A DNA stretch of 64,000 nt, from positions 1-64,000 of the forward strand of contig NZ_QOHO01000072.1 in assembly GCF_003432035.1 (NCBI RefSeq), given 5' to 3'. This DNA comes from Lacrimispora amygdalina. Lineage in GTDB: Bacteria; Bacillota; Clostridia; Lachnospirales; Lachnospiraceae. Below, in pieces: positions 35,303 to 38,722 of this stretch (positions within the stretch are counted from its first letter, which is position 1; each line of letters begins with the position of its first letter). The notes beneath the pieces were generated by a model. The model searched no databases. It was not told the origin of the DNA and saw only the letters and a program-made list of their open reading frames with translations. A program made the translations under genes and the position numbers.

Positions 35303-35497
35303 TTAAATTTCTAACATTTCTATAATGTTCTTTCTTTCTGGTATAGTTGTTATTATTTCAATGCAATATTCTTCCGGGATGATCCCCCTCATGTTATGTT
35401 TTGGTAATATACTTATTTTTTCAATTGCATTATTTCCAATAATATCTGGTTTCTTTTTTTCCATCTTTAAAATTTTTATAAATAAATTTTCTCTCAT
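35303..35497 (-). CDS. 64-residue hypothetical protein next to agrD
   Basis: A small, Ile- and Lys-rich protein starting MRENLFIKILKMEKKKPDII and ending TTIPERKNIIEMLEI. One cysteine is present; there is no signal peptide or membrane helix and no family I know. AGGAG lies eight bases before ATG 35497, a promoter-like pair lies at 35552-35580 and a terminator follows the stop, so it looks like a real one-gene unit. The open frame on the opposite strand has no ribosome site. Its place directly after agrBD suggests it may belong to the quorum-sensing locus, but nothing in its sequence shows how. Confidence 0.5.
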   Translation of the reverse strand: MRENLFIKILKMEKKKPDIIGNNAIEKISILPKHNMRGIIPEEYCIEIITTIPERKNIIEMLEI

Positions 35498-35617: not shown

Positions 35618-35742
35618 ACTCCCCTTTTTGTATAAGAAAAAACAATGTCTTCCTATACTATATGCTTTTTCACTAAACAACGTTTTTATAATTCGTTGAA
35701 TTACTCATACCGGAATTTCTGATGATGTCTTCTTTTCTAAAA

Positions 35743-35883
35743 TTACTTTGCATTGCGCATCTTTAACACTTCTTCCGGAATTTTTCTTTCATAAACTCCA
35801 GCCGGAATGCTTCTCCCTACAGAATTAAGAGATACTTTAACTAATGCTTTCTGCAATTCTTTTACTACTTCCTTTTTCATCAT
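35743..35883 (-). CDS. agrD: AgrD-like autoinducer peptide precursor without cysteine
   Basis: A 46-residue peptide overlapping the end of agrB in another frame, with GGAG seven bases before its ATG. It has an AgrD layout: a helical basic N-terminus (MMKKEVVKELQKALVKV), a short core (NSVGRSIPAGV) and a charged C-terminal recognition tail (YERKIPEEVLKM) that compares well with the DEVEVPKEL-type tails of known AgrD proteins. There is no cysteine. The ring residue would have to be Ser25, giving a lactone such as SIPAG or SIPAGV, as in the serine-lactone signal of Staphylococcus intermedius. The position and length fit AgrD strongly; the processed product is inference. Confidence 0.72.
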   Translation of the reverse strand: MMKKEVVKELQKALVKVSLNSVGRSIPAGVYERKIPEEVLKMRNAK

Positions 35884-36448
35884 CCTCAATCTCCTTTTTA
35901 TTTGTTTTGTTTTTAGGAAATAACGTTAGTATTTCCAAAACAACCGGATAAATAAGTAGTTCTCTCAGTGACGGATTCAGATATGCAACCGTCATGATAA
36001 GAGTTAAAACAGCAATAGAATACAGTTTCTTTTTCAGAATATCTTTTGGAGTAAAATATTCTATGTTAATGGTCCTTGGTGCAAAAAACAAAATAACGAT
36101 TAATGAAATAATATAGATGTATGGCAACAGGGAAAGTCCGATTGGTAAATATGTATGTCCGGTTAATGATACAACCCATATTAGCAGCATACTAAGCCCA
36201 CATCCAGTTCCCGTTCTTGCATGTACCCCGCCAGCCTGCAACCTGAGTCCACAGAAAGCTGATAATATAAGAAGAGTCTCCAGTCCTTTTCCAATCATAA
36301 TTCCTATGGTCTGAATGAATAAAAACTTTACAATATTATCCAATAACAGTTCAATTCCATATTGAATTACATCGCTTTCTTCTTTACTTTTGGGACTGAT
36401 TTCATTCATCCAACTATTAAGCATTAATGCCATTTTATCTATGCCCAT
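35837..36448 (-). CDS. agrB: AgrB-type membrane peptidase processing the autoinducer
   Basis: A 203-residue integral membrane cysteine protease with about five hydrophobic segments. AgrB cuts off the AgrD C-terminal tail and closes the ring. The catalytic His and Cys are both present with the usual spacing in LQAGGVHARTGTGCGL. A GLRLQAGG stretch matches the family motif before the histidine. The C-terminus is charged and overlaps agrD by 47 bases. A GGTGG-type ribosome site precedes ATG 36448. It is divergent from agrC, unlike staphylococcal agr, in which all four genes are in one operon. Confidence 0.92.
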   Translation of the reverse strand: MGIDKMALMLNSWMNEISPKSKEESDVIQYGIELLLDNIVKFLFIQTIGIMIGKGLETLLILSAFCGLRLQAGGVHARTGTGCGLSMLLIWVVSLTGHTYLPIGLSLLPYIYIISLIVILFFAPRTINIEYFTPKDILKKKLYSIAVLTLIMTVAYLNPSLRELLIYPVVLEILTLFPKNKTNKKEIEDDEKGSSKRIAESIS

Positions 36449-36484
36449 TTTTCCACCACCATTTAACCATATATTACCATAACT

Positions 36485-36532
36485 TTAAGATAAAAAATAT
36501 TTTTGCAATTATCGTTGTGTATTTTATCTTAA
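36485..36532. promoter_or_regulatory. 11-bp inverted repeat between agrB and agrC
   Basis: TTAAGATAAAA (36485-36495) and TTTTATCTTAA (36522-36532) are exact complements 26 bases apart. The left half overlaps the place where the agrB minus-35 would lie (a TAATAT minus-10 is at 36476-36471 on the minus strand, with a poor minus-35). It may be a binding site for the LytTR regulator or a dimeric repressor. Confidence 0.45.
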
Positions 36533-36565
36533 GCGTCAAACATGGGGATTTTTCATACAATTAGC

Positions 36566-36594
36566 TTTACTTTCTATTTCCAACAAGGTACAAT
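36566..36594 (+). promoter_or_regulatory. Promoter of agrC-agrA
   Basis: TTTACT (36566-36571), 17 bases, TACAAT (36589-36594). The agrC ATG at 36624 follows GAGGTG. Confidence 0.65.
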
Positions 36595-36623
36595 AATAGT
36601 ATTTACTAGCGAGGTGAGACACC

Positions 36624-37937
36624 ATGACATATTTTATCTATACCTTTACAGGAGGTCTTTGTAATTATTTCTCCTGCGTTAATTTGCTGCCCAAAAAACT
36701 CTCTGTATTAAAAAGCTTTCTTTTATTTTTATATGCTTTCGGATCTCTTTTTCTCTTTAATCATGTTTATGGGCAGGCTGGTACTTTTATTACACTTACA
36801 GGTATACTGATAATTGTATGTATTATAACAAAAAACGATTATCTAAGCCTGGGGTGTTATTTGTTCGGATATCTATATATCATTGCATTTAATTATCTGT
36901 TTATGTACATTGCAGGCGAAGTACTTAAAATGGATATGATATCTATGCTTAAACATGATATCATGAACATTGCTTTTTCATGTTTATACTGTGTATATTG
37001 TGGAGTTACAACTAAATTAATCGGAATATTTATTCATAAAAAATTAAATATCTCCAAATATCTGACGAACCAGCATATGCTTAAAGCTATACTAATCGAC
37101 TTGTTTCTTTTGGTGTTTTTCTTTGTTTTTAATTTTTCATATGGTGAACGTTTAGGATATAATTATGGTGTAATCGCACTTAATGGAATTATCTTTTTAT
37201 TGCTGTTCTCTATTACTGTTTTTCTAATGTATTCTATTTATAAAGTAACCATGGGAGAACAAGCTTATAAATTTCGTATGGCACAGTACGAAAATCTGCA
37301 GAGCTATACAGAGAAGCTGGAGAACTCTTACGGCATAATGCGAAAATTTAAACATGATTATATGAATATACTCAGTACGATGAGTGGCTTTATGGAAGAA
37401 AATGACATGGATGGATTAATTGAATATTATGAAAAAAGAGTTCTTCCTATCAGTCACTCATTTTCGGAATCAGATACAAAACTGGGTGCTCTCTCAAAAA
37501 TCAAAGATACCGCCATGAAAAGTCTGCTATCATCGAAATTTATTTATACGATGGAGATTGGTATTAATTTAAAAATCGAATTAACTGAAATAATTGACGA
37601 TCTGGTCATGGATACTCTTGATCTTTCAAGAATTATTGGGATTTTTTTAGACAATTCTATAGAAGCAGCTATGGATACAAATGAAAAAGAATTATATTAC
37701 TGCATGTTTTATAGGGACAATGACCTTTACATAATTATACGAAATACTTCTCTCCCTCTAAGTCATGCAATCTCACAACTTTGCAGCCACGGCATATCCA
37801 CAAAAGGGGAAGACCGCGGAGTAGGACTTTATAACGTATCTCTCATACTAAGCAACTATAACAATATTATCTGGGATACTACTTACGAAGAACCTTACTT
37901 TACTCAGAAACTGATTCTTAGAAAAGGTGTAAAATAG
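36624..37937 (+). CDS. agrC: AgrC-like sensor histidine kinase
   Basis: A 437-residue receptor for the peptide signal. The first 215 residues hold about six to seven membrane helices, as in AgrC. A coiled linker follows, then the phosphoacceptor histidine in MRKFKHDYMNIL (close to the FRHDYxNIL motif of AgrC), and a GHKL ATPase with the N box IIGIFLDNSIEAAMD and G-type box STKGEDRGVGLYNV. It is in an operon with the regulator nine bases downstream. Base composition is AT-rich compared with the flanking housekeeping genes. Confidence 0.9.
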   Translation: MTYFIYTFTGGLCNYFSCVNLLPKKLSVLKSFLLFLYAFGSLFLFNHVYGQAGTFITLTGILIIVCIITKNDYLSLGCYLFGYLYIIAFNYLFMYIAGEVLKMDMISMLKHDIMNIAFSCLYCVYCGVTTKLIGIFIHKKLNISKYLTNQHMLKAILIDLFLLVFFFVFNFSYGERLGYNYGVIALNGIIFLLLFSITVFLMYSIYKVTMGEQAYKFRMAQYENLQSYTEKLENSYGIMRKFKHDYMNILSTMSGFMEENDMDGLIEYYEKRVLPISHSFSESDTKLGALSKIKDTAMKSLLSSKFIYTMEIGINLKIELTEIIDDLVMDTLDLSRIIGIFLDNSIEAAMDTNEKELYYCMFYRDNDLYIIIRNTSLPLSHAISQLCSHGISTKGEDRGVGLYNVSLILSNYNNIIWDTTYEEPYFTQKLILRKGVK

Positions 37938-37946
37938 GTGTTATAA

Positions 37947-38687
37947 ATGATTCATATATATCTTTGTGAAGATGATAAAAGACAATTAAAAAGATGGAAA
38001 GATATTATTGAAAAATATTTGTTAATGAATTCTACAGAATCTATTCTTTACTGCACTGCCTCGAATCCGGAGGAACTTTTATCATATAGGAAAAAGTCAG
38101 GTATTACAGGTCTGTATTTTCTTGATATTGATTTACAGGCCAGACAAAACGGAATTGAACTGGCTCAGGAAATACGAAGATATGATCCTCGTGGTTACAT
38201 TGTTTTTGTTACAACCCACAGTGAAATGGCTATTCTTACGTTTCAATATAAAGTGGAAGCAATGGACTTTATTGTAAAGGATGAACCCAAAACTCTGCCG
38301 GATCAAATCTGTGCCTGCGTACGGAATGCAGAAGCAAACTATAAAAACCAGCTAAATGTATCAAACCGGCTGTTATCTGTAAAAATTGATAAATCATCTC
38401 TTATTCTGGACCAGAATGATATAATTGCAGTAACAACCGGAGAAGATTATCATAAAATTATGATACATACGAAATCGGGAGTTAAACAAATAACCGGCAC
38501 TTTAAAAGAGCTGAACGCAATACTAAACTCTGCCTTTTGTCAATGCAGCCGCTCTGTTATAGTAAATTTAAAGCATGTAAGTAAATATTCCAGAGAAAAT
38601 GCCATGCTGATTATGGATAATAAAGAATCTTATCCTGTATCTTTTCGTATGATGGGGAAGGTACAGAAAGCGTTAAATAATTTATAG
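37947..38687 (+). CDS. agrA: AgrA-like LytTR response regulator
   Basis: A 246-residue regulator. The receiver domain (about 1-125) has the acidic pair in YLCEDDKRQL, the phosphoacceptor aspartate in YFLDIDLQARQNG and the conserved Thr and Lys in VFVTTHSE and DFIVKDEP. The LytTR DNA-binding domain (about 140-246) has the usual order of strands with TGEDYHKIMIHT and QCSRSVIVNLKHV. It should be phosphorylated by AgrC and then switch on agrB-agrD and other targets. Translation probably starts from ATG 37947. Confidence 0.92.
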   Translation: MIHIYLCEDDKRQLKRWKDIIEKYLLMNSTESILYCTASNPEELLSYRKKSGITGLYFLDIDLQARQNGIELAQEIRRYDPRGYIVFVTTHSEMAILTFQYKVEAMDFIVKDEPKTLPDQICACVRNAEANYKNQLNVSNRLLSVKIDKSSLILDQNDIIAVTTGEDYHKIMIHTKSGVKQITGTLKELNAILNSAFCQCSRSVIVNLKHVSKYSRENAMLIMDNKESYPVSFRMMGKVQKALNNL

Positions 38688-38694
38688 TTTTTTC

Positions 38695-38722
38695 AAAAAA
38701 GCCGGATTTAATCCGGCTTTTT
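38695..38722. terminator. Bidirectional terminator between agrA and ilvA
   Basis: AAAAAGCCGGAT (38696-38707), TTA loop, ATCCGGCTTTTT (38711-38722). It has T runs on both strands and serves the convergent agrA and ilvA transcripts. It is the right border of the agr island. Confidence 0.92.

Follow-up and report, generated by a model that had tools for sequence, protein, structure and literature searches.

Described agr systems and the locus of Lacrimispora amygdalina

Among the described agr quorum-sensing systems, the closest to the one analyzed here, which occupies positions 35743-38687 of a 64,000-nucleotide stretch of the Lacrimispora amygdalina genome (contig NZ_QOHO01000072.1; the whole stretch is called the window below), is that of Clostridium acetobutylicum and its relatives. 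Autoinducing peptides (AIPs) with six-membered Cys rings were predicted for these bacteria, the agrBD and agrCA genes of which form separate operons, and the synthetic peptide R6T0 is active in C. acetobutylicum (PMC10301443). The window system shares with it the six-residue register, the separate agrBD and agrCA units, and the AgrB, AgrC and AgrA components, but the C. acetobutylicum signal CVLVTL is a Cys thiolactone, whereas the AgrD precursor of the window carries a Ser preceded by a basic residue (PMC10301443, PMC12312760). A LanM-like neighbor gene has also been described for the C. acetobutylicum-type systems of clostridia (PMC10301443, PMC12312760).

Besides CVLVTL, the AIPs tabulated in PMC12312760 include RIPT[STGFF], GBAP, and the C. 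difficile peptide NSA[SSWVA]. In Staphylococcus intermedius/pseudintermedius (RIPT[STGFF]) Ser takes the place of Cys and the AIP is a lactone, as described for S. pseudintermedius (PMC3673130) and as predicted below for the window, but the ring has five residues, the tail four, and the locus is of the agrBDCA type. Similarly, the Fsr system of Enterococcus faecalis (GBAP, QN[SPNIFGQWM]) combines a Ser lactone with AgrB-type processing and an AgrC/AgrA-type receptor (PMC12312760, PMC3673130), but its ring comprises nine residues and fsrD lies inside fsrB. The agr2 signal of C. difficile is a clostridial AIP with Ser at the ring position (PMC12312760), but in the five-residue register. The original prediction had drawn the parallel with S. 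intermedius; the likeness of a serine ring is supported, and the closest counterpart is instead the six-residue register of C. acetobutylicum, occupied mostly by Ser in the family of the window.

Ser lactones, six-residue Cys rings and separate agrBD/agrCA operons are thus each known singly, and their combination was not found in searches of the open-access literature. These searches gave no description of serine six-ring AIPs or of an agr system in Lacrimispora, and PMC10626739 and PMC8748961 gave nothing on serine rings; this is weak evidence of novelty, because it concerns open-access literature only. It had been noted initially that agrBD and agrCA are divergent instead of forming one operon; separate units have already been described in clostridia (PMC12312760, PMC10301443).

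The window contains a complete agr gene set, as was claimed from the first reading: all four genes are intact, with agrD and agrB on the minus strand, overlapping by 47 nt, and agrC and agrA divergent from them on the plus strand (Table 1). His76 and Cys83 of AgrB are invariant across the nine sequences of alignment A2. AgrC has a GHKL domain (47.6 bits, over the Pfam cut-off) with His244 and Asn344 present, and its best NCBIfam match is AgrC (190 bits, below the model cut-off of 500). In AgrA the Pfam receiver and LytTR domains score over their cut-offs, Asp60 is present, and the best NCBIfam match is AgrA (153 bits, below the model cut-off of 400).

The cysteine-free AgrD and its ring register

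The AgrD of the window has no Cys in its 46 residues and thus lacks the core cysteine of a thiolactone AIP; its serines stand at positions 18, 21 and 25. The C-terminal tail YERKIPEEVL is charged, contains a proline and is conserved across the genus. With Pro36 of this tail standing 11 residues C-terminal to Ser25, the precursor is best read as giving a six-residue lactone, Ser25-Val30 (SIPAGV), instead of the usual five-residue ring, with Ser25 as the likeliest nucleophile. The ester bond from Ser25 to the C-terminal carboxylate is suggested by the position of this residue and by the interchange of Ser and Cys in relatives.

Conservation within Lacrimispora bears out the absence of core Cys and supports the choice of Ser25 proposed earlier. 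An AgrD was matched in all 25 genomes of the genus, invariably with the core Ser and without a core Cys (24 read by pattern and L038 directly); the AgrD of L035 has a single Cys, located in the C-terminal tail. The codon of the core Ser varies silently (AGC in 12 and AGT in 12 of the 24 AgrDs read by codon), whereas the core between Ser and YER is nearly uniform, [IF]-P-[AV]-[GTAL]-[VIM], and Lys or Arg directly precedes the Ser in 25/25. The genes agrB and agrC are divergent in each of the 23 loci that show both (L020-L042). A decayed agrD is ruled out, since the frame, Ser25 and the Cys-free core are kept in every genome of the genus. Origins on mobile elements were also rejected: AgrD has no match in the phage collection, and the three plasmid records matched by AgrB align with 36% of the protein at 29.7-31.1% identity.

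Relatives were collected from genomes of the family, taken to be Lachnospiraceae, where NCBI places Lacrimispora, and of the class. A search with AgrD gave matches in 12 of 299 family genomes, that of the window included; six of the others are AgrDs next to agrC/agrA with the core VGK[SC], and the remaining five are not such AgrDs (one lies among other genes, three are in long frames, one contains stops). Weak matches of a further AgrD search included AgrDs of several kinds and chance matches. AgrB was matched in at least 54 of 329 genomes, and AgrC profile A3 in at least 58 of 397 family genomes and at least 38 of 291 class genomes, two partly overlapping sets; these AgrB and AgrC counts are lower bounds because at most four or five candidates per genome were scored. 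From the loci of the AgrB and A3 searches a part was fetched. AgrD was recognized in 6/7, 13/20 (one on a separate contig), 16/40 and 27/40 loci of successive batches. The resulting set, from which loci with no recognized AgrD were dropped, comprises 68 AgrDs, including the window, four from its own genome and L274; the fetched stretch holds AgrC for 58 and AgrB for 66 of them.

Registers were assigned by setting the tail Pro as +5 counted from the residue after the ring. Those of L047, L048, L112, L113, L116, L224, L247 and L264 were assigned or adjusted manually (that of L112, with a tail one residue shorter, is the least sure), and L044 was relabeled as ambiguous. The limits of 170 and 100 bits that separate two groups of AgrC were chosen after a gap had been seen, no row lying between 81 and 173 bits, and seven of the 30 upper rows (the window and L043-L048) had served to build the AgrC scoring model.

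The two AgrC groups differ in register. Among the 30 AgrDs with AgrC of at least 170 bits, position -6 is filled by Ser in 18, Cys in nine, and Leu, Lys and Ala in one each, so that Ser or Cys occurs here in 27/30, whereas 11 kinds of residue are found at -5. In the 28 AgrDs with AgrC below 100 bits, position -5 is Cys (22) or Ser (6). By register, the upper 30 loci are classified as Ser-6 (16), Cys-6 (8), ambiguous (3), Ser-5 (1), Cys-5 (1) and neither (1), the lower 28 as Cys-5 (21), Ser-5 (6) and Cys-5/-6 (1), and the ten loci with no detected AgrC as Cys-5 (8) and Ser-5 (2). Unambiguous rows are divided as 24 six to two five above and zero six to 27 five below (Fisher p 4e-13, a value uncorrected for relatedness and obtained with an upper group found partly with profiles of its own class).

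The register is inherited with both AgrC and AgrB. On the AgrC tree (55 rows, ambiguous ones left out) it changes twice, and the two groups are split at 97/95; two changes are likewise seen on the AgrB tree (64 rows, ambiguous ones left out), where a supported clade (99/91) comprises 35 five-register rows. Both trees were constructed without the AgrB and AgrC proteins of C. acetobutylicum, S. pseudintermedius and E. faecalis. The window belongs with the six-register systems in the distance of Ser25 from the tail Pro and in the grouping of AgrC and AgrB, the latter joining Ser-6 rows at 90/89, below the starred support level.

Within the six-residue register Ser and Cys interchange at -6. L047 (G142) has Cys in place of Ser at -6 in a clade of otherwise Ser rows (100/98), and L227 (G570) has Ser in place of Cys as the sister of three Cys rows (100/100). 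In the family of the window (20 upper rows) Ser stands at -6 in 17 and Cys only in L047, whereas the ten upper rows of other families have Cys at -6 in eight (e.g. CFGFGF, CAFLVL, CFWWAI) and Ser there in one. It was considered whether the Ser codon proves an origin from Cys. AGY is used in 13/16 Ser-6 and TCN in 8/9 Ser-5 AgrDs, but this is not decisive, because AGY and TCY are each one step from TGY.

A possible correlate was observed in AgrB. Outside the upper AgrC group, 32 of 38 proteins have Tyr or Phe directly N-terminal to the catalytic His, compared with four of the 18 read (of 30) inside it; this residue might bear on ring size.

Predicted signal chemistry and rival explanations

We consider it probable that the locus encodes a working agr circuit that uses a serine-based six-residue lactone, produced by AgrB and sensed by AgrC, as its signal; this model best explains the data. 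In it AgrB would recognize the charged tail YERKIPEEVL, cut the Val30-Tyr31 bond by means of Cys83 and His76, and hand the acyl group to Ser25, the side-chain oxygen of which would close the lactone Ser-Ile-Pro-Ala-Gly-Val. A second protease would trim off the leader, perhaps by a cut close to the conserved Lys/Arg24, so that only a short tail or none remains. AgrC would sense the signal and AgrA would be phosphorylated, acting at the shared agrB/agrC promoter in a positive loop, and perhaps also on the 64-aa gene downstream.

Several observations weigh against this model. The ring chemistry and the AgrB cut site are predictions, not direct observations, and lactone analogues of five-residue AIPs were in some cases unstable or weak (PMC11297923). 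The AgrC lineage of the window is not uniform in register: position -5 is Ser in L192 and Cys in L200, L223 fits neither register (its Cys is at -7), and three rows are ambiguous (L044 Ser-6/Cys-5, L189 Ser-5/-6, L213 Cys-5/-6). On the AgrB tree the six-register rows do not form one clade, the five-register L192, L200 and L259 being placed among them. No recognizable AgrD was found in 24 of the 40 loci fetched by AgrC score, which were dropped. Finally, AgrD matches no model of Pfam, NCBIfam or PHROGs, and the hydrophobic moment gives no significant sign of the amphipathic leader that an AgrD should have, being equaled or exceeded in 374 of 2000 shuffles.

The end of the ring, previously left open between Gly29 and Val30, is the point at issue in one alternative, a five-residue serine lactone SIPAG cut by AgrB after Gly29, equal in ring size to the S. 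pseudintermedius signal. Five-residue rings are the norm, Ser-5 AgrDs occur in the same family (6/28, in the other lineage), and predicted Cys rings of L004 and L249 also end in Gly. Such a cut would, however, fall one residue early relative to the register of the tail Pro, Cys occupies -6 in 9/30 AgrDs paired with this AgrC lineage, and six-residue rings have been published for C. acetobutylicum (PMC10301443). The comparison with relatives thus favors Val30, and we regard SIPAG as improbable. Slightly better placed, although still unlikely, is a scheme in which the lactone is an intermediate: a hypothetical cut after Lys/Arg24 would free the amine of Ser25, and an O-to-N shift would yield a head-to-tail cyclic hexapeptide. 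The residue directly before position -6 is Lys (14) or Arg (5) in 19/30 AgrDs of the lineage, and Lys or Arg in all 25 of the genus. Rearrangement of tail-free thiolactone AIPs to homodetic peptides has been reported, and after 22 h a five-residue lactone analogue had undergone 48% rearrangement and 36% hydrolysis; for the lactone this conversion, accompanied by hydrolysis, proceeds much more slowly than for the thiolactone (half-life 1.3 min) (PMC11297923).

It had also been pointed out that a Cys-bearing agrD elsewhere could be the true substrate of the window AgrB, which would make the adjacent AgrD a relic. A PF04647 search revealed six agrB genes in the genome, the window copy included. 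Four of the five others indeed adjoin a Cys AgrD (CAWAH|HQPE, CGYIY|YQPE, CILTI|HQPE and CFFIG|YQPK), and for the fifth (L005) an AgrD was looked for and not found. However, each Cys AgrD lies beside an agrB of its own, the reading frame, core and position of the window-type agrD next to agrB are kept across the genus, and the profile of its class finds in this genome the window copy only (next match E 1.9). A relic AgrD is accordingly very improbable.

Whether the proposal extends to a Lachnospiraceae-wide agr lineage with six-residue serine lactones, in which ring size is inherited with AgrB and AgrC while the nucleophile switches between Cys and Ser, seems to us an evenly balanced question. 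The same holds for the suggestion that the Lacrimispora signal may be genus-wide instead of strain-specific, which is made because its core is nearly identical across species. If the six-residue lactone is real, a widespread bacterial family uses a class of signal that has so far had no chemical description, and the paired AgrB enzymes would show one enzyme family changing both ring size and nucleophile. A search keyed on the core cysteine would miss the whole class, and the three model collections named above fail to recognize this precursor. The SIPAGV lactone and its species variants are exact predictions that can be synthesized.

Intergenic elements, the companion gene and variant loci

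Alignment of the region between agrB and agrC from 24 genus loci revealed CGT-centered repeats at 36513 and 36534, with a period of 21 nt (the first CGT in 23/24 loci, the second in 24/24). The sites bound by LytTR regulators consist of 9-nt repeats spaced about 12 nt apart, and we presume that the CGT repeats resemble such AgrA/LytTR sites. The candidate agrC promoter, TTTACT-17-TACAAT at 36566-36594, is of a kind that occurs in the window at chance level (20 promoter-like sites found, 19.7 expected).

Table 1. Coordinates of the agr genes and associated features in the window
Feature	Positions	Strand	Basis
Conserved 64-aa protein gene	35303..35497	-	downstream of agrD, same strand; ribosome-binding site AGGAG
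Conserved intergenic element CCGGTATGAGT ... GAAAAAGC (agrD/64-aa gene)	35664..35713	-	first motif in 18/25 genus loci
agrD, 46-aa cysteine-free signal precursor	35743..35883	-	ATG at 35883, stop at 35743; ribosome-binding site AAGGAG
Predicted ring Ser25-Ile-Pro-Ala-Gly-Val30	35794..35811	-	putative; derived from the distance to tail Pro36 and from 67 other AgrDs
agrB, membrane peptidase/cyclase	35837..36448	-	PF04647 91.5 bits (cut-off 23); His76, Cys83
Divergent agrB/agrC promoter region	36449..36623	.	CGT-centered repeats, promoter-like site
agrC, sensor kinase of the six-residue-register lineage	36624..37937	+	GHKL domain, NCBIfam AgrC, AgrC tree
agrA, LytTR response regulator	37947..38687	+	receiver and LytTR domains, Asp60
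Terminator-like hairpin 3' of agrA	38696..38722	+	hairpin in the sequence

The 64-aa gene is found downstream of agrD in 25/25 genus genomes (in two copies in G305), and the protein has one weak partial match in 199 other family genomes (G022, E 0.003). It matches no model of Pfam, NCBIfam or PHROGs, and its predicted fold (mean pLDDT 54) gives no confident structure. This gene is possibly a companion, partner or output of the agr circuit.

The conserved element upstream of this gene has a variable, hairpin-like middle; its first motif, CCGGTATGAGT, is present in 18 of 25 genus loci, and the whole pattern occurs once in the L. amygdalina genome. A known RNA was rejected as its identity, as nine loci gave no Rfam match at the gathering score, and the folding energy was in no way unusual in the four sequences tried of 15 aligned. 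Two sub-threshold Rfam matches in the window coincide with the end of agrA and with its terminator-like hairpin.

Variant arrangements were observed among the related loci. In L043, L047, L117 and L125, agrB separates agrC from agrA and is encoded on the opposite strand, and agrD is still divergent from agrC. In L046 and L111 (G250, contigs 2 and 18) a Ser AgrD lies by agrC and agrA, and the 11.5-kb stretch contains no agrB; the sole agrB match of this genome at E <= 1e-6 is situated on a different contig. Finally, an apparent agrB-agrD fusion was detected in L059 (G144, 892-1638), a 249-aa AgrB reading frame with the AgrD-like C-terminus GGLPCVLVFHEAKVPNAL.

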